Shown one piece after another: positions 24,154 to 40,055 of a DNA stretch of 64,000 nt. The notes below the pieces were generated by a model. That model was not told the DNA's origin, made no database searches, and was given only the letters and a program-made list of their open reading frames with translations. Origin of the DNA: Aurantibacter aestuarii (GTDB taxonomy: Bacteria > Bacteroidota > Bacteroidia > Flavobacteriales > Flavobacteriaceae). The position numbers were made by a program, and so were the translations under genes. Every line of letters starts with the position of its first letter. The stretch's first letter is position 1. Where the stretch lies: contig NZ_PXOQ01000006.1 of assembly GCF_003008425.1 (NCBI RefSeq), positions 1 through 64,000 of the forward strand. Direction: 5' to 3'.

Positions 24154-24244
24154 TACCTAATGTGGTTTTTGTTCAAAAAATCCAGATTAACTGTTGTTTT
24201 GTGTTGTGTAAATAGATTTTAAAATGGGATAAGTTATTAACAAA

Positions 24245-24269
24245 GTGGGTTTTTGTGGTAAAAAGTGGT
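24245..24269 (+). promoter_or_regulatory. Predicted MraZ operator of the division and cell wall cluster
   Basis: Three direct repeats, GTGGG at 24245, GTGGT at 24255 and GTGGT at 24265, are spaced exactly 10 bases apart with A/T-only 5-base gaps. MraZ is known in other bacteria to bind TGGGN-like repeats separated by 5 bases upstream of its own gene. The site lies 11 bases upstream of the -7 element and would block or bend around polymerase. Confidence 0.75.
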
Positions 24270-24280
24270 AATATTTTCAA

Positions 24281-24288
24281 TATATTTG
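24281..24288 (+). promoter_or_regulatory. -7 promoter element of the mraZ-ftsZ cluster
   Basis: TATATTTG is an exact consensus match ending 31 bases before the mraZ start. The nearest TTG upstream (24253-24255) is 25 bases away, longer than usual, which would suit a regulated promoter. Confidence 0.65.
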
Positions 24289-24319: not shown

Positions 24320-24790
24320 TTGAACTCATTAATAGGCACATACGAATGTAAAGTAGATGCAAAAGGTAGGTTAATGCTTCCTGCTGCGTTGAAAAAGCAG
24401 TTGTCTCCTGTTTTGGAAAATGGGTTTGTTATAAAAAGAGCTGTTTTTCAACCTTGTTTGGAATTGTATCCAATGCAAGAATGGGAAGTTTTAATGCAGA
24501 AAATTAACAAGTTAAACCGTTTTAAAAAGAAGAATAACGATTTTATCCGTCGTTTTACTGCAGGTGTTAAAATGGTTGAGGTCGATGCGAATGGAAGACT
24601 TTTAATCCCAAAAGATTTAGTTGGTTTTGCACAAATTTCTAAGGAAACCGTGTTGTCTTCTGCAGTAAATATTATTGAAATTTGGGATAAAACGAAATAT
24701 GAAGCCGCTATAGATGAAGCTACTCTGGATTTTGCAGATTTAGCTGAAGAAGTAATGGGAAATGATGAAGACGATGACAGCATATCATAA
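24320..24790 (+). CDS. mraZ: Division/cell wall cluster transcriptional repressor MraZ
   Basis: 156 residues with two AbrB-like SpoVT repeats: GTYECKVDAKGRLMLPAALKK near the N-terminus and VEVDANGRLLIPKDLVG near residue 95, each with the D-x-x/G-R-L-x-L/I-P core. The start codon is TTG (24320), chosen because the family begins right at the GTYECK strand and no ATG lies upstream in frame. MraZ forms a ring and represses the cluster promoter. The 10-base-period repeats upstream fit autoregulation. The acidic tail (MGNDEDDDS) is common in this phylum. It overlaps rsmH. Confidence 0.95.
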   Translation: MNSLIGTYECKVDAKGRLMLPAALKKQLSPVLENGFVIKRAVFQPCLELYPMQEWEVLMQKINKLNRFKKKNNDFIRRFTAGVKMVEVDANGRLLIPKDLVGFAQISKETVLSSAVNIIEIWDKTKYEAAIDEATLDFADLAEEVMGNDEDDDSIS

Positions 24791-25679
24791 TCCAGTATTA
24801 TTAAAAGAAACTGTAGATGGCTTAAATATTAAGCCTGACGGAGTTTATGTAGATGTTACTTTTGGAGGTGGCGGACACAGTCGCGAGATTTTAAGTCGTC
24901 TAGGTGAAAACGGTAAATTGTTTGCTTTCGATCAAGATCCGGATGCATTGGAAAATACTATTGACGACTCTCGATTTACTCTAATTCATGAAAATTTCAG
25001 ATTTATAAAACGCTTTTTGCGTTTTTATGGAGTTAAAGAAGTAGATGGTATTCTGGGAGATTTTGGAGTGTCTTCGCATCAATTTGATGTGGCAGAACGT
25101 GGTTTTTCTACCCGTTTTGAAGCAGATTTAGATATGAGAATGAATCAAAATTCAAAACTGTCGGCTTATCATGTGGTTAATGATTACGATGAAGAACAAT
25201 TACGTTCGGTGCTAGCTCAATATGGAGAATTACGAGCGGCTCCGGCTATGGCGCGTTTAATTGTGGAAGCTCGTGAGCAAGCGCTTGTAAAAACTAGTGA
25301 ACAATTAAAAACGGTTCTAGCTAAATTTTTGCCACCAAGACATGAAAACAAAGTGTTGGCGCAAATTTATCAAGCGATTCGTATTGAAGTGAACCAGGAG
25401 ATAGAAGTGTTAAAAGAGTTTTTAGCGCAAACGCCGGAAATCTTGACGGAAAAAGGAAGATTAAGTGTGATATCATACCATTCTTTAGAAGATAGATTAG
25501 TAAAGCGTTTTATAAGAAATGGATTGTTTGAAGGTGAGCCAGAACGTGATATGTTCGGTAATTTTTCAGTGCCATTAAAAAAAGTGGGTGGGTTAGTAGT
25601 GCCTTCAAAAGAGGAAATAAAACTTAATAATCGCGCAAGAAGTGCAAAGTTAAGAATAGCAGAAAAAGTTAGTGAGTAA
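24774..25679 (+). CDS. rsmH: 16S rRNA (cytosine(1402)-N(4))-methyltransferase
   Basis: 301 residues from the ATG at 24774 (MTAYHNPVLLKE). ATGs at 24762 and 24765 are also in frame and cannot be excluded. SAM-binding VDVTFGGGGHS, the DxDP-like FDQDPDAL, the GILGDFGVSSHQFD segment and the C-terminal SYHSLEDRLVKRF are all present. It methylates N4 of C1402 in the ribosomal P site. It overlaps mraZ by about 17 bases and ftsL by 8, so expression is coupled. Confidence 0.96.
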   Translation: MTAYHNPVLLKETVDGLNIKPDGVYVDVTFGGGGHSREILSRLGENGKLFAFDQDPDALENTIDDSRFTLIHENFRFIKRFLRFYGVKEVDGILGDFGVSSHQFDVAERGFSTRFEADLDMRMNQNSKLSAYHVVNDYDEEQLRSVLAQYGELRAAPAMARLIVEAREQALVKTSEQLKTVLAKFLPPRHENKVLAQIYQAIRIEVNQEIEVLKEFLAQTPEILTEKGRLSVISYHSLEDRLVKRFIRNGLFEGEPERDMFGNFSVPLKKVGGLVVPSKEEIKLNNRARSAKLRIAEKVSE

Positions 25680-25986
25680 GTTTAATGACATATTAAGAGG
25701 TAAGTTTTTGGTTAGTGACGATTCGTTTAAAAACTGGCGCATCATCATATTTATTTCAGTATTAGCTCTTATAATGATAGCAAGCTCGCATAGTGCAGAT
25801 AAAAAAGTTCATGAAATTGCAAAATTGACAGATCAGGTTAAAGAGTTGCGCTCTGCGCTTTTTGATGGGAGAACTCAGTTAATGCAACTTAAAATGGAAT
25901 CTAATGTGGTAAAGCGAATGGAAGAGAAAAGCATTGCGCCTTCCGAGATTCCACCAAATAAAATAATAGTAAAAACAAGTAAGTAA
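25672..25986 (+). CDS. ftsL: FtsL-like cell division protein
   Basis: 104 residues, single membrane helix at about 23-40 (WRIIIFISVLALIMIAS) followed by a coiled-coil-like segment (VHEIAKLTDQVKELRSALFDGRTQLMQLKMESNVVKRM) in the periplasm. Size, topology and position between rsmH and the transpeptidase fit FtsL, although sequence identity within this family is low. The start is GTG and overlaps the rsmH stop by 8 bases. FtsL links with FtsB and FtsQ to activate FtsW and FtsI. No separate ftsB is seen here. Confidence 0.85.
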   Translation: MSKFNDILRGKFLVSDDSFKNWRIIIFISVLALIMIASSHSADKKVHEIAKLTDQVKELRSALFDGRTQLMQLKMESNVVKRMEEKSIAPSEIPPNKIIVKTSK

Positions 25987-25990
25987 TAAC

Positions 25991-27997
25991 GTGGCAGTAC
26001 AAGAAAAGGGCATATTAAACCGATTGTATTTTGTGGCTGGATGTATGTTCATCTTCGGCATTGCTGTGGTATTTAAATTATTTAGCATTCAGTTTATTCA
26101 AGGTGATAAATACCGTGAAATGGCCGATAAACGCGATATCAAGGAAATGGTTATTCCTGCAAATCGTGGTAACGTTTATTCTTCAAACGGAAACTTACTG
26201 GCAACTTCCATTCCTAAGTACGATATCCGCTTTGATGCGTTGGCGTCTTCAAATAAAAATTTCGAAAAACATATTAAAGGTTTGTCAGATTCACTATCGG
26301 TGTATTTTGGGAAGCCCTCATCATATTATACTCAGAAGCTTAGAAAAGAACGTAAAAACAAAAGTCGCTATTTACTATTAGCTCGTAATATTGGTTATTC
26401 ACAATATTTAAGATTCAGAAGTTTTCCATTACTAAACTTAGGTGCTTACAAAGGTGGTTTAATTGTAGAGCAATCGACTAAGCGCGAATATCCATTAGGT
26501 GTAGTTGCGCAAAGAACGATTGGTTATGAGCGTAAAGATGAAGCAGGAAATGTAACTCGTCCAGGAATAGATGGTGCTTTTGGAGAAAGCTATTTAAAAG
26601 GAAAAGATGGGTTGCGCTTAAAGCAGAAAATAGGAAAAGGACAATGGAAGCCTATTGTAGATTATGACCATGTAGAGCCGGTTGATGGTTATGATGTGTA
26701 CACTACGATTGACGTCAACATTCAGGATATTGCACATCACGCATTATTGGAGCAATTGGAGTATTATGAAGCGGAGCACGGTTGTGTGGTAGTAATGGAT
26801 GTAAAAACAGGAGAAATAAAAGCCATAGCTAATCTTGGTAGAACAAGTACCAATACCTATTACGAAAAATTAAATTATGCAGTTGGAGAGTCTCACGAGC
26901 CTGGAAGTTCTTTTAAGTTAATGGCGCTTATGGTGGCTTTGGAAGATAAGAAAATAGACACGTCCACCATAGTCGATACAGGTCGCGGTAAAAAACACTT
27001 TTATGGGCGATATATTACAGATTCTAAAACCGGTGGTTATGGTAAAATCTCTGCAGCGAGAGCTTTAGAGGTGTCTTCCAACATTGGTTTGGCAACCTTA
27101 ATAGATGATGCTTATGCCGATAATCCACAGCAATTTATAGACAAATTAAAATCTTGGCATTTAAATGAACGCTTAGGTGTTGCTATTAAAGGTGAAGGTA
27201 AGCCGGATATTCCTCAACCAGGAGACAAAAAATGGAGCCGTAATGCATTGCCTTCAATTGCATATGGCTATAACCTTAGACTTACACCGCTACAAACTTT
27301 AGCATTTTATAATGCAATTGCAAATAATGGTAAAATGGTTAAACCTCGCTTTATTAAAGAGGTAAAAGAGCACAGTAAGTCTATAGAGAAGTTTGACGAA
27401 ATGATTTTAGTAGATCAAATTGCATCAAAAGAAACTTTAGATAAAATTCACGAAATTTTAAAAAATACAGTAGAAAGAGGTACGGGTAGTAGTTTGTATT
27501 CAAAATACTTTTCTATGGCGGGAAAAACCGGAACTACACGAGTTGAATACTGGAAAGATGGATGGGAAGAAAATCCTAAATACATTTCATCTTTTACAGG
27601 GTATTTTCCAGCTGAAAATCCTAAATATTCTTGTATAGTTGTTATTCATGAGCCTAAAGTTAAAAAAGGATTTTATGGTGCAGATGTGTCGGGTCCAGTA
27701 TTTAAAAAAGTGGCTCAAAAGATATTTACAGATACACCAATTAAGGAAGAAATTAAATCGCTTAACGCAGAAACCGTCCAGTTAACTAAAGACTATAACA
27801 GTTATAACGATAAGGCAAGAACTTATATTACCATTATGCCAAGTGTAGTGGGTTTACCGGTTATGGATGCGGTAGCGCTGTTAGAAAATATGGGCTTAAA
27901 AGTGGTGTTTAATAAAACGGGACGCGTAAAATCGCAGTCCATTTCTAAAGGCATAAAAGTAAAAGCAAATCAAACTATAGAATTAGAAGTGTCGTGA
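25991..27997 (+). CDS. ftsI: Septal peptidoglycan transpeptidase (class B PBP) with a PASTA domain
   Basis: 668 residues from a GTG start. N-terminal membrane helix (about 15-35), PBP dimer domain (VIPANRGNVYSSNGNLLATS), then transpeptidase motifs: S306-x-x-K309 in GSSFKLM, S-S-N in EVSSNIGL and K-T-G in GKTGTTR. A single PASTA domain ends the protein (about 605-668, PSVVGLPVMDAVALLENMGL), which is usual in Bacteroidota PBP2/3. It crosslinks septal peptidoglycan with FtsW. It lies 4 bases after ftsL and overlaps murE by 4 bases. Confidence 0.95.
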   Translation: MAVQEKGILNRLYFVAGCMFIFGIAVVFKLFSIQFIQGDKYREMADKRDIKEMVIPANRGNVYSSNGNLLATSIPKYDIRFDALASSNKNFEKHIKGLSDSLSVYFGKPSSYYTQKLRKERKNKSRYLLLARNIGYSQYLRFRSFPLLNLGAYKGGLIVEQSTKREYPLGVVAQRTIGYERKDEAGNVTRPGIDGAFGESYLKGKDGLRLKQKIGKGQWKPIVDYDHVEPVDGYDVYTTIDVNIQDIAHHALLEQLEYYEAEHGCVVVMDVKTGEIKAIANLGRTSTNTYYEKLNYAVGESHEPGSSFKLMALMVALEDKKIDTSTIVDTGRGKKHFYGRYITDSKTGGYGKISAARALEVSSNIGLATLIDDAYADNPQQFIDKLKSWHLNERLGVAIKGEGKPDIPQPGDKKWSRNALPSIAYGYNLRLTPLQTLAFYNAIANNGKMVKPRFIKEVKEHSKSIEKFDEMILVDQIASKETLDKIHEILKNTVERGTGSSLYSKYFSMAGKTGTTRVEYWKDGWEENPKYISSFTGYFPAENPKYSCIVVIHEPKVKKGFYGADVSGPVFKKVAQKIFTDTPIKEEIKSLNAETVQLTKDYNSYNDKARTYITIMPSVVGLPVMDAVALLENMGLKVVFNKTGRVKSQSISKGIKVKANQTIELEVS

Positions 27998-29457
27998 AAA
28001 ATTTAAAAGACATACTATATAAAGTGGCAATCGAGAGTGTAGTTGGTTCTACGTCGGTTAGTGTAAATGCGCTTCAGTTCAATTCTAAATTAGTAGAAGA
28101 AAATGATGTATTTTTTGCTATTAAAGGAAGTGTTGTAGATGGTCATCAATACATTTCAAACGCTATAAACCAAAAAGCGATTGCTGTTATTTGCGAAGTG
28201 TTGCCAGAACAATTAGATGAAGCGGTAACTTATATAGTTGTAAAAGATAGTAGTGTGGCTTTAGCTATTATGGCGTCTAATTATTTCGAAAATCCATCAA
28301 CAAATCTAAAATTAGTTGGAGTTACAGGAACTAACGGTAAAACCACTATCGCAACGCTTTTATATCAACTCTTTAAAAATGCGGGTTACAAAGTAGGCTT
28401 ATTATCTACAGTTAAAGTAATGGTAGACGATAAAGAATTTCCTGCAACGCATACCACGCCAGACTCTATAAGTATCAATTCTTTTTTAGCTGAAATGAGC
28501 GGTGAAGGCGTCGAGTTTTGTTTTATGGAAGTGAGTTCTCACGGTATCCACCAAAATAGGACTTTAGGCTTACAATTTGAAGGTGGCATATTTACCAACT
28601 TAAGTCATGACCATTTAGATTACCATGAAACCTTTGCGGAATATCGCGATGTTAAAAAGCGTTTTTTCGACCAGCTGCCAAAATCGGCTTTCGCCTTAAC
28701 TAATGTAGACGATAAAAATGGAGCAGTGATGCTTCAAAATACCAAAGCTAAAAAGATAAGTTATGCTTTGAAAAGTATAGCTGATTATCAGGCGAAAATT
28801 TTAGAGAATCAATTAACAGGTCTCCTGCTAAAAATAAATAATAAAGAAGTTTGGACGAAGCTTATTGGAAATTTTAATGCCTATAATGTGTTGGCAATTT
28901 ACGCAACAGCAGAGCTTTTAGGATTAGAAGAGCAAGAGATTTTAAGATTGTTGTCCATTCTAGAAAGTGTAAGTGGTCGTTTTCAATATATCATTTCAGA
29001 TCAAAATATAACGGCAATTGTAGATTATGCTCATACGCCAGATGCTTTAAAAAATGTATTAGAAACCATAAACTCTATTCGCACAAGTAACGAAAATTTA
29101 ATTACGGTAGTAGGTTGTGGCGGGAATCGCGATAAAACAAAGCGTCCAAAAATGGGGCATATTGCATCTGCATTAAGTACTAAAGTGGTGTTTACTAGCG
29201 ATAATCCGAGACATGAAGATCCGGAGATTATTATTGAGGAAATAGAAAAAGGTGTAGAACCACAACATTTTAAAAAAACGATGTCTATTTCAGACCGCAA
29301 ACAAGCTATTAAAACCGCTTGTCAGTTTGCCGAAAGTGGTGATATTATCCTAATAGCAGGTAAGGGACATGAAACGTATCAAGATGTTAAAGGCGTAAAA
29401 TCGGATTTTGACGATTTAAAAATTGTGACACAATTGTTGAAACAATTAGAGAAATAA
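27994..29457 (+). CDS. murE: UDP-N-acetylmuramoyl-tripeptide synthetase (meso-DAP adding)
   Basis: 487 residues, GTG start in a 4-base overlap (GTGA) with ftsI. ATP loop GVTGTNGKTT, the central FTNLSHDHLDYHETFAEY, and the C-terminal D-N-P-R-H-E-D-P motif (TSDNPRHEDPE), which in known MurE enzymes selects meso-diaminopimelate rather than lysine. It adds the third residue to the UDP-MurNAc peptide. The cell wall is therefore of the DAP type. murF, usually next, is not in this cluster. Confidence 0.97.
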   Translation: MKNLKDILYKVAIESVVGSTSVSVNALQFNSKLVEENDVFFAIKGSVVDGHQYISNAINQKAIAVICEVLPEQLDEAVTYIVVKDSSVALAIMASNYFENPSTNLKLVGVTGTNGKTTIATLLYQLFKNAGYKVGLLSTVKVMVDDKEFPATHTTPDSISINSFLAEMSGEGVEFCFMEVSSHGIHQNRTLGLQFEGGIFTNLSHDHLDYHETFAEYRDVKKRFFDQLPKSAFALTNVDDKNGAVMLQNTKAKKISYALKSIADYQAKILENQLTGLLLKINNKEVWTKLIGNFNAYNVLAIYATAELLGLEEQEILRLLSILESVSGRFQYIISDQNITAIVDYAHTPDALKNVLETINSIRTSNENLITVVGCGGNRDKTKRPKMGHIASALSTKVVFTSDNPRHEDPEIIIEEIEKGVEPQHFKKTMSISDRKQAIKTACQFAESGDIILIAGKGHETYQDVKGVKSDFDDLKIVTQLLKQLEK

Positions 29458-29500
29458 TAAATAGAGAAGTAAAAAAGAATTTAAGCAAATAAACAACCAG

Positions 29501-30733
29501 ATGTTATACTATTTATTCGAATTTTTAGAAGAACAATACCAGCTTACCGGAGCGAGTGTGTTTCAATTTATCACATTTCGTGCGGCATTAGCTATTATTT
29601 TGTCATTGTTGTTTTCAACTATATTCGGAAAAAAAATCATTACACTGCTACAAAAAAAGCAGGTTGGAGAATCGGTTAGAGATTTAGGTCTAGAAGGTCA
29701 GGTTGAAAAAGCAGGAACGCCAACCATGGGAGGAATTATTATTATTCTTGCTACGCTAGTGCCTGTACTTCTTTTAGCTAAACTGGAAAATATATATGTA
29801 ATCATGCTTATTGTAACCACGATATGGATGGGAATTGTAGGTTTTACGGACGATTATATAAAAGTATTTAAAAAGGATAAAGGCGGTTTAAGTGGGAAAT
29901 TTAAAGTGCTTGGGCAAATAGGTTTGGGGATCTTTGTTGGCGCGATCATGTATTTTCATCCAGGTGTAACCATTAAGCAGGAAAAAATAAACCCAAAATA
30001 TTCAACAGAAAAAATCACACAAAACTCTCCTATGGAGTTTAATGAAGAAGAGCAGTCATTAAAAACAACTATTCCATTTGTTAAGGATAATGAGTTTGAT
30101 TATGCACAAATTACCACATGGTTTGGAGATGAAACTGGTAAGTATGCTTGGTTAATTTTTATTCCAATAGTCATTTTTATTGTTACCGCAGTGTCTAATG
30201 GTGCAAATCTAACCGATGGTATAGATGGATTAGCGGCGGGGAGTTCTGCCATTATTGTGTTTACACTCGCCATATTTGCTTTTATATCTGGTAACATTGT
30301 GTTCTCAGATTACTTAAACGTCATGTTTATTCCGCGTTTGGGTGAACTCGTGGTGTTTATAGCTGCTTTTGTAGGAGCACTTATTGGGTTTTTATGGTAC
30401 AACACCTATCCTGCTCAGGTTTTTATGGGAGACACAGGAAGTTTAACTATTGGTGGTGTTATCGCGGTAATTGCAATTGCGGTGCGTAAAGAATTATTAA
30501 TACCAGTGTTATGCGGAATTTTCTTTGCAGAATCACTCTCGGTGATTCTTCAAGTAAGCTGGTTTAAATATACACGAAAGAAATTTGGAGAAGGGAGACG
30601 CATATTTAAAATGTCTCCTTTACACCATCATTATCAAAAAGGTGGTTTTCATGAAAGTAAAATTGTAACACGATTTTGGATTATAGGAATTTTTCTAGCC
30701 ATAATTTCTATTGTGACCTTGAAGTTGAGGTAA
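29501..30733 (+). CDS. mraY: Phospho-N-acetylmuramoyl-pentapeptide-transferase
   Basis: 410 residues with about 10 helices. Motifs: [31 protein letters not shown], the [15 protein letters not shown] catalytic Asp segment, and [11 protein letters not shown] near the end. The protein is about 50 residues longer than E. coli MraY. The extra length is an acidic periplasmic or cytosolic loop (about 160-205, [17 protein letters not shown]) between helices, usual in this phylum. It makes lipid I from UDP-MurNAc-pentapeptide. It follows murE by 43 bases. Confidence 0.97.
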
Positions 30734-30774
30734 GTAAAAGAATACAGAGAAGAGAATTTAGATAATAATTTAAA

Positions 30775-32115
30775 ATGAAACAAAACAAAAAAATAGTGGT
30801 TTTAGGTGCTGGCGAAAGCGGTATTGGTACTGCGCTTTTAGCTCAGGCTAAGGGTTATGATGTTTTTGTTTCAGATAAGGGAACGATTAAAGAAAATTAT
30901 AAGCAATCGCTAATTGATAATAACGTCACGTTTGAAGAGCAGCAGCATACCGAATCTAAAATTTTAGATGCCGATGTGGTTATGAAGAGTCCAGGAATAC
31001 CAGATAAAGCGCCGCTTGTGAAACAACTTCGCGAAAACGGGACTCAAGTTATTTCAGAAATCGAATTTGCTTCAGAGTTTACTAATGCAACTTGTGTGGC
31101 TATTACAGGAAGTAATGGTAAAACAACGACTGCCAGATTAACTCATTTCATTTTGGAAAAAGAATTGGAAGTTGGTTTAGGAGGTAATATTGGCGACAGC
31201 TTTGCTTTACAGGTTCTACAAAAAGATGCACCAAATTATGTGTTAGAGATTAGTAGTTTTCAGCTGGACGACTGTTACGCTTTTAATCCTAAAATTGCCA
31301 TTATAACAAATATTACACCAGATCATTTAGATCGGTACGATTATAAATTAGAAAATTATGTAGCGTCTAAATTTCGCATTGTTCAAAACCATACCGAAAA
31401 TGATGTTCTTATTTACGATGCGGACGATGAGATTCTTAACGAGTACATAAATACACACGACATAAAATCAACCTTAATACCATTTTCATTAGTCAAAACT
31501 TTTAAAAATGGTGCTTATTTATCAGATAACAACCTTACAATAACCTTAGAAAACAACACATTCAGTATGCCTACAAAAGATCTAGCTTTAAACGGAAATC
31601 ACAACATTAAAAATGCTATGGCTGCAGCTACCGTAGCCAGTTTGTTAAAAATTAGAAAACAAACTATTAGAGAAAGTTTAGAGAATTTTCAAGGTGTAGA
31701 ACATCGTTTAGAGAATGTGCTTAAAATAAATAAGGTGCAATATATTAACGACTCTAAAGCAACTAATGTAAATGCGACCTATTATGCCCTAGAAAGTATG
31801 GAGGCTCCAACCGTGTGGATTGTTGGTGGTGTAGATAAAGGTAATAATTATAAAGAGTTATTTCCATTTGTAAATGAAAAGGTTAAGGCAATTATATGTT
31901 TAGGTAAGGATAACGAGAAATTAAAGGAAAACTTTAGTGGCATGGTAGATATTCTTGTAGAAACTGAATATATGAGTGAAGCTGTTAAGATTGCATACAA
32001 AATAGCAGAAGCAGGAGATAATGTGTTGTTGTCTCCAGCGTGTGCGAGTTTCGATTTATTTGAAAATTACGAAGACCGTGGGAGACAGTTTAAAGCATCT
32101 GTAAGAAATTTATAA
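30775..32115 (+). CDS. murD: UDP-N-acetylmuramoylalanine--D-glutamate ligase
   Basis: 446 residues. N-terminal Rossmann segment VVLGAGESGIGTALLA, ATP loop AITGSNGKTTTA, the NITPDHLDRYDY segment with catalytic His/Asp, and C-terminal LLSPACASFDLFENYEDRG, all diagnostic of MurD. It adds D-glutamate to UDP-MurNAc-L-alanine. In pathway order it acts before MurE although its gene is after mraY, as in other dcw clusters. Confidence 0.97.
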   Translation: MKQNKKIVVLGAGESGIGTALLAQAKGYDVFVSDKGTIKENYKQSLIDNNVTFEEQQHTESKILDADVVMKSPGIPDKAPLVKQLRENGTQVISEIEFASEFTNATCVAITGSNGKTTTARLTHFILEKELEVGLGGNIGDSFALQVLQKDAPNYVLEISSFQLDDCYAFNPKIAIITNITPDHLDRYDYKLENYVASKFRIVQNHTENDVLIYDADDEILNEYINTHDIKSTLIPFSLVKTFKNGAYLSDNNLTITLENNTFSMPTKDLALNGNHNIKNAMAAATVASLLKIRKQTIRESLENFQGVEHRLENVLKINKVQYINDSKATNVNATYYALESMEAPTVWIVGGVDKGNNYKELFPFVNEKVKAIICLGKDNEKLKENFSGMVDILVETEYMSEAVKIAYKIAEAGDNVLLSPACASFDLFENYEDRGRQFKASVRNL

Positions 32116-32157
32116 ACAACTATAAAAAGTATTTAATACAGCATTTAAAGGAAAGTA

Positions 32158-33375
32158 ATGGAAATGAAAACCGTGTTTAATAACATAAAAGGAGATCGGC
32201 TAATCTGGGCTTTGGTGGCGCTGTTGGCTATATTTTCGTTTTTACCGGTTTATAGTGCGTCCAGTAATTTAGCATATGTTACAGGTTCTGGAAACACATT
32301 TACTTTTTTTATAAAGCATTTTATTCATTTGCTTATGGGGTTTGGAATTATGTATGGCGTACATAAATTTCCTTACCGTTACTTTAGAGGGCTGTCGTTA
32401 ATCATGTTGCCTTTAGTAATTGTTTTACTTATTATAACCATGATTCAAGGCACCACTATAGATGGTGCTAATGCCAGCCGATGGATTAGAATTCCTATTG
32501 TGGGCGTTTCGTTTCAAACATCAACTTTTGCTTCGGTGGTTTTAATGGTTTATGTGGCGCGATACCTATCAAAAATAAAAGATGAAAAGGTGTCGTTTAA
32601 AGAGACCATTCTGCCTCTGTGGTTTCCTGTGTTTTTGGTTTTAATGCTTATTTTACCAAGTAACTTTTCTACTACGGCTATTATATTTTCAATGGTATTG
32701 GTATTAACCTTTCTTGGAGGTTATCCAATTCGGTATCTGGCAGCAATTGTTGGAGCAGGTCTAATTGGTTTTATCATGTTCGTGTTGGTAGCAAAAGCAT
32801 TTCCAGACGCTATGCCTAATCGTGTAGATACATGGATAAGCAGAATTGAAAATTTCTCCGATAACGCAGATACCAAAGAAGATTATCAAATTGAAAAAGC
32901 TAAAATAGCAATTGCTTCTGGCGGTATAAAAGGTGTTGGACCCGGTAAAAGTATTCAAAAAAACTTTTTGCCTCAGTCGTCATCCGACTTCATATTTGCA
33001 ATTATTATAGAAGAATACGGAATGATTGGTGGATTGTTCTTGCTGCTTATGTATATGTTTTTACTCTTTAGAATAGTAATTGTAGCTCAAAAAAGCGATT
33101 CTGTATTTGGAAAACTGCTTGTTTTAGGAGTTGGTATTCCTATCATTTTTCAAGCATTAATAAATATGGCTGTGGCGGTGGAATTATTCCCAGTTACAGG
33201 ACAGACCTTGCCATTTGTAAGTAGTGGAGGTACCAGTATTTGGATGTCATGTTTAGCTATAGGAATTATTTTAAGCGTAAGTGCTAAACGTGAAGAGTTA
33301 AAACAAAAAGAGTCTAACGATTTAGACGAAGATTTAGAAGATAATCCTTTGGAAGTGCTTTCTGAAGCGATGTAA
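32158..33375 (+). CDS. ftsW: FtsW/RodA/SpoVE family septal glycosyltransferase
   Basis: 405 residues, about 10 membrane helices. SEDS family motifs: [32 protein letters not shown], and the late [18 protein letters not shown] proteins polymerise glycan strands from lipid II. Its place between murD and murG points to FtsW rather than RodA. The extra C-terminal tail (about 380-405, [12 protein letters not shown]) is acidic and probably cytosolic. The segment around residues 225-245 ([18 protein letters not shown]) is a periplasmic loop. Confidence 0.95.
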
Positions 33376-33404
33376 AAAGAAAAGATAAGAATATAAAAAT
33401 AGAA

Positions 33405-34514
33405 ATGACAACTCGTAAATCACATCATTACAAAATTATACTCTCTGGCGGCGGTACAGGTGGTCACATCTATCCTGCAATTGCCATAGCTAACGAGCTT
33501 AAAAGCCGTTACCCAGAAGCAGAGTTTCTTTTTGTTGGAGCAAAAGATCGCATGGAGATGGAAAAAGTGCCTCAGGCGGGGTATGCTATTAAGGGTTTGT
33601 GGATTACGGGCATTCAACGTGCTTTAACTTTAAAAAATATAGCGTTTCCATTTAAATTGGCGAGTAGTTTATATAATGCTTATAAAATTGTAAACAAATT
33701 TAAGCCAGATGTCGCTATAGGTACTGGTGGTTTTGCTAGTGGCCCATTATTGCAAATGGCAAATTTAAAAGGAGTGCCAACCTTGGTGCAAGAGCAAAAC
33801 TCTTATCCTGGTATTACAAATAAGCTGTTAGCTAAACGAGCTAATAAAATATGTGTGGCGTATGACGGATTAGAGCGCTTTTTTCCAAAAGAAAAACTCA
33901 TTAAAACAGGAAACCCTGTGCGTCAGGATTTGTTAGATGTAAGTCAAAATGGAGAAGAAGCTCAAAAATTCTTCAACTTAAAAAAAGATAAAAAGACACT
34001 ATTAGTTTTAGGTGGGAGTTTAGGTGCAAAAGCTATTAATGAATTAATTGAATCGAAACAAGACTATTTCAAAAGTAATAATATTCAAGTTATTTGGCAA
34101 TGTGGAAAGTTATATGCAGAGCGTTTTGAAAAATATAATGCAACAGAAGATATTCAGGTACATACTTTTTTAAATCGAATGGATTTAGCCTATGCTGCGG
34201 CAGATGTAATTATCTCTAGAGCAGGAGCAAGTTCTGTTTCAGAATTATGTATTGTTGGGAAACCTGTTGTGTTTATTCCTTCGCCTTACGTAGCAGAAGA
34301 CCATCAGACTAAAAATGCCGAAGCTGTAGTAAGTAAAAATGCTGCATTGTCAATCCCACAAAATAAATTAGAAGAAGTGTTTGAAGCGCAGTTTTCAGCA
34401 TTACTAAATTCAGCTGAACAACAAGCTGAATTATCTCAAAATATAAAACAACTGGCCCTTACAAATGCAACTAAAGCTATTGTAGACGAAGTTGAAAAAC
34501 TATTAAAAAAATAA
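33405..34514 (+). CDS. murG: Lipid II synthase (MurG N-acetylglucosaminyltransferase)
   Basis: 369 residues, GT28 family. N-terminal glycine loop [21 protein letters not shown], the acceptor-binding [24 protein letters not shown], and the donor-binding C-terminal [11 protein letters not shown] with [16 protein letters not shown]. It adds GlcNAc to lipid I at the inner membrane. The stop codon overlaps the murC start by one base (TAATG). Confidence 0.97.
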
Positions 34515-35887
34515 TGAGTACGACAACATCACATACTGCAAATATTCGCTATACCAATATCTATTTTCTAGGTATTGGAGGAATTGGTATGAGTGCTTTG
34601 GCGCGTTATTTTAAAGCTATGGGTAAAATGGTGGCGGGTTACGATAAAACAAAAACCGATTTAACTCAGACCTTGGATGATTTAGATATAGAAATTCATT
34701 ATACCGATTCTGTAGCCAATATTCCTAAAAATTATTTTAACCATCATAATACTTTGGTGGTCTATACACCTGCTTTGCCAAAAGATTCTAGGGAATTAGC
34801 CTATTTTAAAAATAATGGGTTCGATGTTTTAAAACGAAGTGAAGTTTTAGGTTTAATTACTAAAAACACCTTTAGTTTAGCAGTTGCTGGAACTCACGGT
34901 AAAACGACTACCACTTCAATTTTAGGACACTTATTACGTTTTTGTGAGGTGAAATTAACCGCTTTTTTAGGCGGAATTAGTGAAAATTACAACAGTAATT
35001 TAATACTAAATGGTGATGAGGTAAGTGTTATTGAAGCAGATGAATTTGATCGCTCATTTTTAACATTATCTCCAGATATTGCGTGTATCACTTCAATGGA
35101 TGCCGACCATCTGGATATTTATGGAAGCAAAGAAGCCTTGCATGAGTCGTTTAACGACTTCGCTAAAAGACTAAAACCTGAAGGTGTGTTTTTTGTTAAA
35201 AATGGCCTGCCTATAGATGGTTTAACTTATGGTGTTGAAGATAATTCCGATTATACTGCTCAAAATGTAACTATAAAACAAGGAAGCTATCATTTCGATT
35301 TAAAAACGCCGCAAGAAACGTATGCAGGTTTTACGTTTAGTTTGCCAGGAAGACATAATTTGTCTAATGCTACCGTAGCATTAGCTATGGCATTAAAACA
35401 AGGTTGTAATCCGGAAGATTTGAAAAAGGCTTTAGCCGATTTTAAAGGTGTACAACGCAGATTTAGCTATCAAATAAAAACAGATGATTTAGTGTATATA
35501 GACGATTATGCACATCATCCAGAAGAAATTAATGCGGTACATCAAGCTGTTAGGGAGATGTATCCGGATACTTCGGTAACTGTTGTGTTTCAGCCACACC
35601 TGTTTTCTAGAACTAAAGATTTCGGTCAGGAATTTGCCGATAGTTTATCAAAATTTGATGACATTTTACTGTTAGATATTTATCCAGCTAGAGAGATGCC
35701 TATAGAAGGTGTAGACTCAAATTGGTTATTGGAAATGATAATAAATCCAAACAAAAAAGTAATTAACAAATCAGATCTGGTTGAAGAAATAAAGGCAACC
35801 AAAAACAAAGTGATTTTAAGTTTGGGTGCAGGAGATATTGGGGAACAGGTTAAGCAAATCAAAAAAGGATTGTTAAATGAAAATTAA
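34514..35887 (+). CDS. murC: UDP-N-acetylmuramate--L-alanine ligase
   Basis: 457 residues. FLGIGGIGMSALARY nucleotide fold, ATP loop AVAGTHGKTTTTS, MDADHLDIYGS and the C-terminal YIDDYAHHPEEI with VVFQPHLFSRT are diagnostic. It catalyses the first peptide addition on UDP-MurNAc. It overlaps murG by 1 base and ftsQ by 11 bases, implying translational coupling. Confidence 0.97.
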   Translation: MSTTTSHTANIRYTNIYFLGIGGIGMSALARYFKAMGKMVAGYDKTKTDLTQTLDDLDIEIHYTDSVANIPKNYFNHHNTLVVYTPALPKDSRELAYFKNNGFDVLKRSEVLGLITKNTFSLAVAGTHGKTTTTSILGHLLRFCEVKLTAFLGGISENYNSNLILNGDEVSVIEADEFDRSFLTLSPDIACITSMDADHLDIYGSKEALHESFNDFAKRLKPEGVFFVKNGLPIDGLTYGVEDNSDYTAQNVTIKQGSYHFDLKTPQETYAGFTFSLPGRHNLSNATVALAMALKQGCNPEDLKKALADFKGVQRRFSYQIKTDDLVYIDDYAHHPEEINAVHQAVREMYPDTSVTVVFQPHLFSRTKDFGQEFADSLSKFDDILLLDIYPAREMPIEGVDSNWLLEMIINPNKKVINKSDLVEEIKATKNKVILSLGAGDIGEQVKQIKKGLLNEN

Positions 35888-36596
35888 TTATAACTACATA
35901 AAAATAAGCTTATTAGCCATTTTTACAGTGATTATCTGTTCATTTGCCACATCAAGGAATAAAAAGCGTTTGGTAAGCAAACCTCAAATAGAATTTTTAG
36001 GCACCAATAACCTTTTTATAACGAGTGATGCTGTTAGTAACTTGTTAATACAAAATCATCCAGCTTATAAAAACCTTACAAAAGAAGCTTTAGATTTGAA
36101 TGGTTTAGAGCAGTCCTTACTGAAAAATCCAATGATCTCTAATGCAGAGGTTTATGTGAATGCGCAAGGTGTTTTAAAGGCAGAAGTATTGCAAAAACAA
36201 CCTATAGCTCGCGTTATGGGTCAGCAACAATTTTATATAGATAGTAATGGTGGCTACATGCCATTATCGGCTAACTATACAGAACGTGTTCCGTTTGTAA
36301 CTGGTGAAGTTTCAAAGCAAAAGCTAAATCTAGTATACCAAATGGCGCATGCTGTGTTAAATGATTCGTTTTTAAAAAAACAGGTCATTGAAATTCATCA
36401 GGATAAAGATGAGTTAATTAGTTTAAAACTAAGAGAGACTAATTTTGAAGTGATTGTTGGATCACTTGAAAATTTAGAAAAAAAAGTCAATAACCTGAAA
36501 GCTTTTTTTATAAAAGCCACTAAGGATAAGACGTTAAATGAGTATAAAACCGTGAATTTGCAATTTGATAACCAAGTTGTTTGTAGCAAAGTTTAA
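35877..36596 (+). CDS. ftsQ: FtsQ-like cell division protein
   Basis: 239 residues. One N-terminal membrane helix (about 8-24, IKISLLAIFTVIICSFA), then a POTRA-like segment (about 40-105) and a beta domain with the LPLSANYTERVPFVTGEV turn. The sequence is divergent from proteobacterial FtsQ, but topology and position between murC and ftsA support the call. It bridges cytosolic and periplasmic division proteins. It overlaps murC by 11 bases and ends 3 bases before ftsA. Confidence 0.88.
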   Translation: MKINYNYIKISLLAIFTVIICSFATSRNKKRLVSKPQIEFLGTNNLFITSDAVSNLLIQNHPAYKNLTKEALDLNGLEQSLLKNPMISNAEVYVNAQGVLKAEVLQKQPIARVMGQQQFYIDSNGGYMPLSANYTERVPFVTGEVSKQKLNLVYQMAHAVLNDSFLKKQVIEIHQDKDELISLKLRETNFEVIVGSLENLEKKVNNLKAFFIKATKDKTLNEYKTVNLQFDNQVVCSKV

Positions 36597-36599
36597 GTT

Positions 36600-37970
36600 A
36601 TGGAACAGAATATTGCAGTAGGATTAGATATAGGTACCACAAAAATTGTGGCCATGATTGGTCGTAAAAACGAGTATGGTAAAATTGAGATTTTAGGGAT
36701 TGGAAAATCTAAAAGTCTTGGTGTTCACCGTGGTGTAGTTAATAACATTACGCAAACTATTCAGTCTATACAACTGGCTATACAAGAGGCCGAAGCAGAA
36801 GCTTCAGAAAAAATAGATGGTGTAACTGTAGGAATTGCAGGACAGCATATTAGAAGCTTACAACACAGCGATTATATTACCAGACCAAATTCGGAAACGG
36901 TTATAAGTGAGGAAGATATAGACCGCTTAATTGGTCAGGTCCATAAATTAGTAATGCTGCCCGGAGAAGAAATCATCCATGTTTTACCTCAAGAATACAA
37001 GGTAGATGGTCAGGCAGAAATTAAAGAACCTATTGGAATGTACGGCGGGCGATTAGAAGCTAATTTTCATGTCGTGGTAGGGCAAGTGTCATCTATTAGA
37101 AATATTGGTAGATGTGTGCAAAGCGCTAATTTAAAATTAGACGGCATTACACTAGAGCCATTAGCATCTGCAAATGCGGTATTAAGTCAGGAAGAAAAAG
37201 AAGCAGGAGTTGCCTTAATAGATATAGGTGGTGGTACTACAGACTTAGCAGTTTTTAAAGATGGAATTATCCGCCATACTGCAGTTATTCCTTTTGGAGG
37301 AAATGTCATAACCGAAGATATTAAAGAAGGTTGTTCTATCATAGAAAAACAGGCCGAATTATTAAAAGTGAAATTTGGTAGTGCATGGCCTGGAGAAAAT
37401 AAAGACAATGAAATTGTCTCTATTCCAGGATTAAGAGGTCGCGAACCGAAAGAAATTACATTAAAAAACTTATCTAAAATTATTCATGCCAGAGTGGTGG
37501 AAATTATAGAGCAGGTGTACGTAGAAATTAAAAACTACGGACATGAGGAGCAAAAGAAAAAATTAATAGCAGGTATTGTACTAACCGGTGGAGGTGCTCA
37601 ATTAAAGCACTTAAAGCAGTTAGTAGAATATATTACAGGAATGGATACCAGAATTGGTTATCCAAATGAGCATTTAGCAGGAGAAAGTGATGATGTATTA
37701 ACAAGTCCATTATACGCAACCGCGGTTGGATTAGTAATGGATGGTTTAAAACGCCAGCAGCGTCAACGTGAAGAAGCAGCAGATTTGTTCTTAGCTAATG
37801 AAAAAGAAAAAGCTGAAGAAGAAGAAAGCAAAGCTTCAGAAGTTTTAAGTAATGAAGTTGAAGAAGAAGAGCAGCCTCAAGAAGAAGTGCAAAAAGTTAA
37901 AAAACCAAGACGCTCGTTACTAGACAGTTTAGCCGAACGTGTGAGGGATTTTTTAGACAATGCAGAATAA
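36600..37970 (+). CDS. ftsA: Cell division protein FtsA
   Basis: 456 residues, actin-like. Phosphate-1 loop GLDIGTTKIVAMIG, SHS2/1C domain (about 85-165), phosphate-2 loop ALIDIGGGTTDLAVF, adenosine motif GIVLTGGGAQL. An acidic linker (about 395-430, many E) leads to a basic amphipathic helix at the end (RRSLLDSLAERVRDFL), the expected membrane target sequence. It tethers FtsZ to the membrane. It lies directly before ftsZ with 51 bases between. Confidence 0.96.
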   Translation: MEQNIAVGLDIGTTKIVAMIGRKNEYGKIEILGIGKSKSLGVHRGVVNNITQTIQSIQLAIQEAEAEASEKIDGVTVGIAGQHIRSLQHSDYITRPNSETVISEEDIDRLIGQVHKLVMLPGEEIIHVLPQEYKVDGQAEIKEPIGMYGGRLEANFHVVVGQVSSIRNIGRCVQSANLKLDGITLEPLASANAVLSQEEKEAGVALIDIGGGTTDLAVFKDGIIRHTAVIPFGGNVITEDIKEGCSIIEKQAELLKVKFGSAWPGENKDNEIVSIPGLRGREPKEITLKNLSKIIHARVVEIIEQVYVEIKNYGHEEQKKKLIAGIVLTGGGAQLKHLKQLVEYITGMDTRIGYPNEHLAGESDDVLTSPLYATAVGLVMDGLKRQQRQREEAADLFLANEKEKAEEEESKASEVLSNEVEEEEQPQEEVQKVKKPRRSLLDSLAERVRDFLDNAE

Positions 37971-38021
37971 AAAATTAATAAAGAAAAGAAAAAGAATAGT
38001 AAACCAGCAAAATTAGAATTT

Positions 38022-40055
38022 ATGAGCAGCAACAACGAATTCGAAAGCATATCATTTGATTTACCAAAAAATCAATCTAACGTCATAAAAGTAATTGGCG
38101 TTGGTGGAGGTGGTAGTAATGCCATTAATCACATGTTCCAGCAAGGTATAAATGGCGTAGATTTTGTCATTTGTAATACAGACTCTCAAGCACTTCAAAA
38201 TAGTGGAGTGCCTAATAAAATCCAATTAGGAGTTCACCTAACCGAAGGTTTAGGAGCAGGTGCAAATCCGCATGTTGGAGAGCAGTCTGCAGTAGAAAGC
38301 TTCGAGGAAATTAAACGTATGTTAGACACTAATACAAAAATGGTGTTTATCACAGCCGGAATGGGTGGAGGAACAGGAACTGGTGCTGCTCCTGTAATTG
38401 CAAAGATGGCTAAAGATTTAGACATTTTAACGGTTGGTATTGTAACAATTCCTTTTCAATTTGAAGGGAAAATGCGTAATGAACAAGCGCAGTTAGGAAT
38501 TGAAAAATTAAGAAAAGAAGTTGATTCTCTAATCGTTATTAATAACAATAAGCTACGTGAGGTCTATGGAAACTTAGGCTTTAAAGCAGGGTTTTCTAAA
38601 GCAGATGAGGTTTTAGCAACTGCATCTCGTGGTATTGCCGAAGTTATAACACATCACTACACACAAAACATCGATTTACGTGATGCTAAAACGGTTTTAA
38701 GTAACAGTGGTACTGCTATAATGGGTTCTGCAACTGCTTCAGGACAAAATAGAGCTCAAGAAGCCATTACAAGTGCATTAGATTCACCTTTATTAAACGA
38801 TAATAAAATTACCGGAGCTAAAAACGTATTGTTGCTAATCGTTTCTGGTAGTCAAGAAATAACTATTGATGAAATAGGAGAAATTAACGACCATATCCAA
38901 TCTGAAGCTGGTCATGGCGCTAACATAATTATGGGTGTTGGTGAGGATGATAGTTTAGAAGATTCAATTTCTGTAACTATTATAGCAACGGGTTTTGATG
39001 TCGAGCAGCAAAACGACATTACTAATTTAGAAACTAAAAAAGTAATTCATTCTTTGGAAGACGACCAAAGTATGAAACAAGATTTGTCTGCTCAAAAAAC
39101 AATTGTTGCTCCCGCAAAACCTCAACCGGTTAACGAGCCTAAACCAGAGCCAATTATTAAGCACACGCTGGATCTTGATGAAGATGTAGAAGCTGTAACA
39201 GAGCCTATTCAAAAATCAACAGAAAAAAAACCACATACAGAACCAACAAACCATTTAGAGTTAATACCAACGAGTGAATTAATAAAAAATATAAATGTGG
39301 TTTATGATGAAGTTCAGGTTAATGTAGAGGATTTTAATGATTTTGTAATTACGTCTTCTGCAACAGCAAATGAGGAAGAAGAGGTTGAAGAAGAAGAACA
39401 ACAAATAACTTTGACTTTCGATTTACCTTTTAACGAATCTATGGATTTTGTTGAGAAAGAACCTGAAGCTAAAAATGAACCACAAGTAGAAGCGTCAATA
39501 GAAACGGTTAAAGAAGTGAAGCCAGTAATTCATCAACTTACAGACGATGAAAAAAATATTGAGGTTAATGATGAAGTAGAAATCATTCCAATTACCAAAT
39601 CAACTAGTAATGGAGAAGTACGTTATGCGTTAGACGATTATGATTTGGAAGAATCATCAATTAATAAAGTAGCTGAAACTACTAGTAAAGATAATGATGA
39701 AGAAGAAGATGCCGATTTAAATATGTTTGTAAAAGGATCATTAGAGGATAATTCTGTTTTATCAGAAGATTCGGATGCCGATACTTCAGATCCTTTAAAC
39801 TTGCCTATTTCAGAATTGTTAAAAAGTAGAGCAGACGAGCGTCGTAAAAAAATGAAAGCGTTTAATTACAAATTTAATAATCAGAAGATTGATGATATTG
39901 AAAAGATTCCTGCATATAAACGTCAAGGTTTGGATTTGGAAGAAGGACAGCATTCATCAGACTTAAATTCTTCAAGAACGATGCTTGGAACGGATGATAA
40001 TAATGACATCCAATTACGTAGTAATAACTCGTTCTTACATGATAATGTAGATTAA
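38022..40055 (+). CDS. ftsZ: Cell division protein FtsZ with a long acidic linker
   Basis: 677 residues. GTPase core (about 20-325) with the tubulin signature G115-GGTGTG-121 inside TAGMGGGTGTGAAP, the T7 loop NNDLR-like region and NIIMGVGEDDSLED. A very long, acidic, low-complexity linker (about 330-600) follows, against ~50 residues in E. coli. The FtsA-binding-like core peptide IPAYKRQG is at about 629-636, not at the very end. It is followed by a further 41-residue tail ending NNSFLHDNVD. It polymerises into the division ring. It is the last gene of the cluster, followed by a terminator. Confidence 0.96.
   Translation: MSSNNEFESISFDLPKNQSNVIKVIGVGGGGSNAINHMFQQGINGVDFVICNTDSQALQNSGVPNKIQLGVHLTEGLGAGANPHVGEQSAVESFEEIKRMLDTNTKMVFITAGMGGGTGTGAAPVIAKMAKDLDILTVGIVTIPFQFEGKMRNEQAQLGIEKLRKEVDSLIVINNNKLREVYGNLGFKAGFSKADEVLATASRGIAEVITHHYTQNIDLRDAKTVLSNSGTAIMGSATASGQNRAQEAITSALDSPLLNDNKITGAKNVLLLIVSGSQEITIDEIGEINDHIQSEAGHGANIIMGVGEDDSLEDSISVTIIATGFDVEQQNDITNLETKKVIHSLEDDQSMKQDLSAQKTIVAPAKPQPVNEPKPEPIIKHTLDLDEDVEAVTEPIQKSTEKKPHTEPTNHLELIPTSELIKNINVVYDEVQVNVEDFNDFVITSSATANEEEEVEEEEQQITLTFDLPFNESMDFVEKEPEAKNEPQVEASIETVKEVKPVIHQLTDDEKNIEVNDEVEIIPITKSTSNGEVRYALDDYDLEESSINKVAETTSKDNDEEEDADLNMFVKGSLEDNSVLSEDSDADTSDPLNLPISELLKSRADERRKKMKAFNYKFNNQKIDDIEKIPAYKRQGLDLEEGQHSSDLNSSRTMLGTDDNNDIQLRSNNSFLHDNVD

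Follow-up and report, generated by a model that had tools for sequence, protein, structure and literature searches.

A predicted MraZ operator abutted by a DnaA-like box at the dcw promoter of Aurantibacter aestuarii and other Bacteroidia

Three GTGG boxes at positions 24245-24269, before the mraZ gene of Aurantibacter aestuarii, very likely form a MraZ operator, as predicted from their sequence, spacing and conservation. This operator is abutted by a 9-mer that resembles a DnaA box, and the arrangement makes it probable that MraZ and DnaA, both of them predicted to bind here, jointly set transcription of the dcw genes. The window analysed was a stretch of 64,000 nucleotides, and positions are those of the window unless a contig or locus is given.

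The mraZ gene occupies positions 24320-24790 of the plus strand and encodes, from a TTG start, a 156-residue protein whose two D-x-x-x-R loops read DAKGR and DANGR. The product matched the Pfam MraZ model with an E value of 1.9e-28, as two stretches of PF02381, and reached 113.3 bits against NCBIfam TIGR00242 (cut-off, 98.35). Resemblance to the solved MraZ chains 1n0e, 9qlg, 9sx6 and 9qlr was also detected, and the protein has the two MraZ domains, each with a D-x-x-x-R loop, by which the family is recognized. TTG was also common as the mraZ start codon among the relatives that were read. The rest of the dcw run extends on the plus strand from 24762 to 40055 in the order rsmH (mraW), ftsL, a PBP gene, a Mur ligase gene, mraY, murD, a gene of the ftsW/rodA type, murG, murC, an ORF of 239 aa, ftsA and ftsZ. 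The 239-aa ORF (35877-36596) lies in the murC-ftsA interval, the place of ftsQ; at the thresholds applied, neither Pfam nor NCBIfam had a model that matched it. In the phylum sample, all 8 of the f22 genomes were without a MraZ match, and this family may lack mraZ.

The boxes are GTGGG at 24245-24249 (box 1), GTGGT at 24255-24259 (box 2) and GTGGT at 24265-24269 (box 3), all on the plus strand; all three are conserved in relatives, and box 2 falls where the -33 element would be expected. The period is 10 bp, with TTTTT as the spacer between the GTGG-type boxes 1 and 2 and AAAAA between boxes 2 and 3. Eleven bases past box 3 lies TATATTTG (24281-24288, plus strand), the -7 element of the predicted promoter, and the mraZ start is 51 to 75 bases 3' of the three boxes. 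The boxes, their 10-base period and A/T gaps, the spacing to the -7 element and how far mraZ lies from them had been described in the sequence-only reading, and all of these were confirmed where it had placed them. When one mismatch was allowed, the GTGG triple matched the window once, 100 dinucleotide shuffles gave no match, and the whole 2.9-Mb genome also held a single match, before mraZ. A looser search of this genome for two exact boxes returned the two overlapping pairs of the operator and one further match, at C6:534841, which falls within an ORF; the backward-read control gave 2.

Conservation of the operator was examined in samples of increasing breadth. Among 80 named Flavobacteriaceae loci, which come from near relatives of A. 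aestuarii, 78 had three exact GTGG boxes at 10-bp steps before mraZ and the remaining 2 had GTGT as box 1. A sample spread over the genera of the family, in which all 58 mraZ matches were used, contained the exact triple in 49 genomes and a pair in 8 more. From the class sample, 134 of the 137 genomes with an mraZ match were used, the A. aestuarii genome being already in the family set and G265 (broken frame) and G323 (partial) being left out. After regrouping into 61 family (Flavobacteriaceae) genomes and 131 genomes of other Bacteroidia, an operator chain was found in 61 of 61 and 121 of 131, respectively. Chains with at least two exact GTGG boxes were present in 61 of 61 and 116 of 131 genomes, against means of 0 and 0.25 in dinucleotide shuffles, and at least three GTGG boxes preceded mraZ in 53 of 61 and 81 of 131. 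All 61 family genomes had a -7 element of the form TAnnYTTG no more than 40 bp past the last box, and in 58 of them its distance, counted from the first base of the last GTGG, was 15 to 16 bp. Because this box-to-TAnnYTTG geometry is fixed, boxes 2 and 3 would cover the -33 region of a promoter that we take to be of the Bacteroidota type (-33/-7). The proposal that GTGGN boxes with a 10-base period would be found before mraZ in Bacteroidota was borne out across the family and in most other Bacteroidia. The operator claim itself was supported: the boxes are kept before mraZ at the 10-bp period, their spacing to the -7 element is constant, and shuffled sequences contained almost none. Such conservation and spacing make autoregulation of the mraZ-ftsZ run the best reading of the boxes, with repression predicted by analogy with E. 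coli and Mycoplasma genitalium, in both of which MraZ represses its own cluster (PMC8475190, in excerpt).

The change from G to T at base 5 of two boxes had been taken to mark a phylum-specific variant of the motif, and this part of the earlier claim did not stand. Of 175 GTGG boxes from Flavobacteriaceae, 85% had T and 12% had G at base 5; for 325 boxes from other Bacteroidia families, the shares were 47% and 41%, respectively. The E. coli K-12 record has GTGGG three times before mraZ with a 10-bp period, and GTGGg-type boxes were seen by eye, on the right strand, at several loci of the phylum outside the class Bacteroidia. In Mollicutes, the MraZ site consists of AAAGTG[T/G] repeats, and mraZ is the sole place with such a motif in the M. 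genitalium chromosome (PMC8475190, in excerpt). A phylum-specific change was rejected, as T is neither fixed in the phylum nor absent elsewhere. The E. coli, Mollicutes and Bacteroidia data together indicate that T at base 5 is a preference of the Flavobacteriaceae and no more than that.

A fourth GTGG was observed past the -7 element in 24 of the named loci (L032-L111), at 40, 42 or 50 to 51 bp from box 3. The genome sample contained 12 extra boxes, at 40, 41, 41, 42, 51, 52 and 53 bp in the family (6 of 61 genomes: G004, G007, G025, G031, G033 and G050) and at 11, 31, 41, 41 and 41 bp in other Bacteroidia (3 of 121 genomes). All of these distances are near multiples of one helical turn; a figure of 0.4 to the 12th for this phasing was derived after the fact and takes no account of kinship. 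On the reverse strand of the same span, GTGG occurred 2 times in the family and 21 times in the others. The DNA past the promoter may fold back on the MraZ ring, a post hoc suggestion drawn from these distances.

The DnaA-like box TTATTAACA lies on the plus strand at 24234-24242 and ends 2 bp before box 1. The sequence-only reading had missed this conserved neighbor of the operator. Two positions of the 9-mer are free, position 3 (A/T) and position 5 (C/T), and the same two are free in the DnaA consensus box, TTWTNCACA (PMC7561715, in excerpt). TTATTAACA fails an exact match to this consensus, as base 6 differs and is A at most sites, and it is therefore called DnaA-like rather than canonical. 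Fifty-two of 61 family genomes had TTWTYAACA on the coding strand no more than 15 bp before box 1, against an expectation of approximately 0.36 derived from their own -400 to -150 stretches. The motif was likewise present in 68 of the 121 other Bacteroidia with an operator; the plain form was absent from this interval in 9 of the 61 family genomes. The gap to box 1 was 2 to 3 bp at most sites, including 54 of the family sites that were counted. When TTWTYAACA or TTWTNCACA was accepted in both orientations and up to 40 bp from the operator, the numbers were 55 of 61 in the family and 99 of 121 in the others. One form or the other was present within this distance in 46 of 58 families, and the remaining 12 had neither. 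Canonical DnaA boxes in either orientation fill the mraZ place in some lineages (L245, L250-L251, L276, L277 and the L294 region). Reverse-strand canonical boxes were detected within 40 bp of the operator in 15 of 121 genomes, compared to a far-upstream background of 0.9, a value that may be too low because these boxes themselves contain GTGG. Across the A. aestuarii genome, TTATYAACA was not over-represented, with 155 occurrences versus 220 for the backward control.

A composite pattern, TTATYAACA-N1-4-GTGG-N6-GTGG, matched 85 of 246 Flavobacteriales genomes, at one place in each, and the backward control matched once. Thirty of the 85 matches were checked by tblastn, and all 30 stood 63 to 97 bp before the mraZ ORF. 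The exact composite was absent from 161 of the 246 genomes, among them all the f2 and f100 genomes listed; counting by hand found it in 47 of 53 family genomes, 0 of 51 f2 genomes and 0 of 52 f100 genomes. In one f2 genome, G071, 12 bp separate the 9-mer from the first intact box after it, which is the usual 2 bp plus one 10-bp period, and it looks as if box 1 has decayed there while the DnaA-like box stayed in register. The small family genomes G016, G035, G052 and G058, which belong to the 9 without the plain form near box 1, have kept the GTGG boxes and lost the 9-mer. Retention of the 9-mer in G071 and of the boxes in the small genomes suggests that the two parts evolve separately, as the sites of two proteins would.

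The same word marks a region that is likely to be the replication origin. In A. aestuarii, six copies of [T/C]TATTAACA in both orientations were found at C4:451009-451609 (L307 11009-11609). TATTAACA had 6 copies in 600 bp at C4:451.1-451.6 kb, and its count never exceeded 2 in the remainder of the 400 kb read. The cumulative GC skew changed direction near C4:430-451 kb, falling before this stretch and rising after it, with a minimum at 429.7 kb, approximately 21 kb to the left of the TATTAACA cluster. The gene next to the cluster is rpiB; dnaA is far off, on contig C6. Skew and repeats together indicate that the region upstream of rpiB is likely oriC, and it is referred to below as the putative oriC. 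When clusters of canonical TTWTNCACA were sought as an origin marker, no 600-bp cluster of more than 2 was present in the 400 kb read, and the putative oriC of A. aestuarii was itself without a canonical TTWTNCACA box. An oriC beside dnaA was considered for this genome and rejected, there being no DnaA-like box between the dnaA ORF and the next upstream ORF.

Upstream regions of rpiB were compared for 30 of the 32 family genomes with rpiB and for 30 of 35 genomes from other families; two of the latter 30, L370 and L372, are cut by contig ends, and their counted stretch includes rpiB and its 3' side. TATTAACA was the top over-represented 8-mer in the 30 family genera (79 copies versus 5.8 expected; present in 27 of 30 genera), and the same regions contained TATCAACA 21 times (1.55 expected) and TTATCCAC 11 times (0.58 expected). 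TATTAACA also ranked first in the 30 genomes of other families (31 versus 3.7 expected), followed by TATCAACA; on the 3' side of rpiB in these families, TATTAACA was absent and TATCAACA ranked 1492. Canonical DnaA words did not rank high upstream of rpiB in the 30 genomes of other families. At a fixed distance of 70 to 72 bp from an inverted copy, a box was present in 21 of 30 family genera, being canonical in 10 (TTATCCACA in 7 and TTATTCACA in 3), TTATYAACA in 9 (TTATCAACA in 5 and TTATTAACA in 4) and TTATAAACA in 2. Ten other spacings, used as a control, gave 0 to 2 genera, and 9 of the 30 putative oriC regions had no box at the 70- to 72-bp place. The interchange of canonical TTATCCACA and TTATTCACA with TTATYAACA at one fixed place is the strongest sequence argument that TTATYAACA serves as a DnaA box in this clade.

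The residues of DnaA were compared with base 6 of the element. DnaA of the family differs from E. coli DnaA in having Ala for Pro at residue 423 and Ala for Thr at residue 435 (E. coli numbering), two positions in domain IV that presumably contact bases. Within the Bacteroidia, DnaA proteins split into an Ala435 group and a Ser/Thr435 group. Among 31 genomes, base 6 of the mraZ element was A in 12 and C in 2 with Ala435, and C in 12 and A in 2 with Ser/Thr435, a further 3 of the latter being without the element; Fisher's test gave a p value of 0.0004 for these genomes, which were chosen by element type. A DnaA tree of 30 rows, made by a quick method with G251 left out, gave 2 and 4 changes, 1 to 3 independent pairs and a sign test p value of 1. 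Two of the residue-435 rows are doubtful, as G325 reads oddly and G071 has a very long branch. The link between residue and base rests on approximately one deep split and was therefore not used as proof.

Other explanations of the 9-mer and of the boxes were weighed against a pair of sites for MraZ and DnaA. The 9-mer could simply belong to a plain MraZ operator with no second protein, either as a flank rich in A and T or as an extended part of the MraZ site or the promoter (UP-like). Its constant closeness to box 1 (a gap of 2 to 3 bp at 54 of the family sites counted) would fit such an extension, as would the E. coli mraZ operator, whose first box is not immediately preceded by a 9-mer of this kind. 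However, the base table showed an A-rich spacer, not the 9-mer, before boxes 2 and 3, and the two parts have been lost independently: the 9-mer is kept at 12 bp in G071 despite a decayed box 1 and is gone from the four small genomes that keep their boxes. An extension of the operator would also not account for the same word topping the repeats at the putative oriC or for lineages that swap in canonical DnaA boxes in either orientation and at other distances. We consider a plain operator unlikely.

The occurrence of the word at both places could also reflect a different origin-binding regulator, with a role like that of CtrA, Spo0A or SeqA, which acts on oriC and on the dcw promoter. In Caulobacter-type bacteria, CtrA binds at sites of both types. 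A CtrA site lies upstream of mraZ in Sinorhizobium (PMC4414408, in excerpt). The A at base 6 of most sites, where the DnaA consensus has C, would be consistent with such a regulator. Against it, TTATCCACA and TTATTCACA exchange with the 9-mer at the fixed position in the putative oriC, canonical boxes occupy the mraZ place in several families, and the free positions of the word match those of TTWTNCACA, so that another regulator appears improbable. It is harder still to credit that the GTGG repeats are a promoter-linked repeat or the site of a factor other than MraZ. Their fixed distance to the -7 element might be read in this way, MraZ binding here being predicted from sequence, but the boxes and their period match the E. 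coli operator and the Mollicutes site, the triple of the A. aestuarii genome stands solely before mraZ, and every one of the 30 composite matches that were checked precedes mraZ.

Under joint control by MraZ and DnaA, MraZ on the boxes, which cover the -33 region, should block RNA polymerase and so repress the mraZ-ftsZ run. DnaA bound to TTATTAACA, at approximately -60 to -52 relative to the predicted start, would touch MraZ at box 1 or exclude it and would sit just upstream of the polymerase. With DnaA in contact or competition with MraZ and next to the polymerase, dcw transcription would follow both the level of MraZ and the activity of DnaA. The mechanism that we prefer, tentatively, is competition of DnaA with MraZ at box 1, lifting repression at high DnaA activity, around replication initiation. 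Co-repression of the dcw promoter by DnaA and MraZ is possible and a little less likely than that, and plain upstream activation by DnaA is also conceivable. A wider proposal is that, in most of the Bacteroidia, the DnaA box joined to the MraZ operator is a two-protein switch through which the initiator sets the division and wall operon, that the E. coli mioC promoter is one instance of a broader MraZ-DnaA partnership, and that DnaA with Ala435 has shifted its preference from TTWTNCACA to TTWTYAACA; we hold the chances of this to be evenly balanced.

How division keeps step with replication and what purpose MraZ serves are long-standing questions, and no clear phenotype has been reported for the loss of MraZ in E. 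coli (PMC8475190, in excerpt). A DnaA-like box 2 to 3 bp from a MraZ operator offers a direct, one-promoter test in non-pathogenic flavobacteria, and, if the reading is true, the site may couple division genes with chromosome copying across many relatives. The motif also predicts the place of oriC, upstream of rpiB, and the form of its boxes, for which the accessible parts of the literature offer little in this group. No report that connects the mraZ promoter of Bacteroidota with a DnaA box was found in the portions of the open-licence PMC literature that were covered.

The predicted operator resembles the mraZ operator of E. coli, reportedly described by Eraso et al. in 2014, whom PMC8475190 and PMC4446571 cite, in having three boxes with a 10-bp period before mraZ; the boxes there are GTGGG, whereas base 5 is mostly T in Flavobacteriaceae, and the E. 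coli operator lacks an adjoining DnaA-like 9-mer. It also resembles the Mollicutes MraZ site, which is said to have been identified as AAAGTG[T/G] by Fisunov et al. in 2016: both are direct repeats before mraZ at one place per genome, and the motif, as PMC8475190 gives it in excerpt, is matched by AAAGTGG at boxes 1 and 3. The Mollicutes site has four boxes, compared to three in A. aestuarii, and no DnaA-like box is mentioned for Mollicutes in the excerpts of that source. The 9-mer shares with the canonical DnaA box its length of nine bases, the same two free positions and the ability to interchange at a fixed place in the putative oriC, and it differs in having A as base 6 at most sites. The precedent for the pair is the E. 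coli mioC promoter, where a MraZ site overlaps a DnaA box (PMC4446571, in excerpt). As far as that excerpt describes it, the mioC promoter lies beside oriC and its two sites overlap, whereas the promoter described here is that of the dcw genes and its two sites abut.
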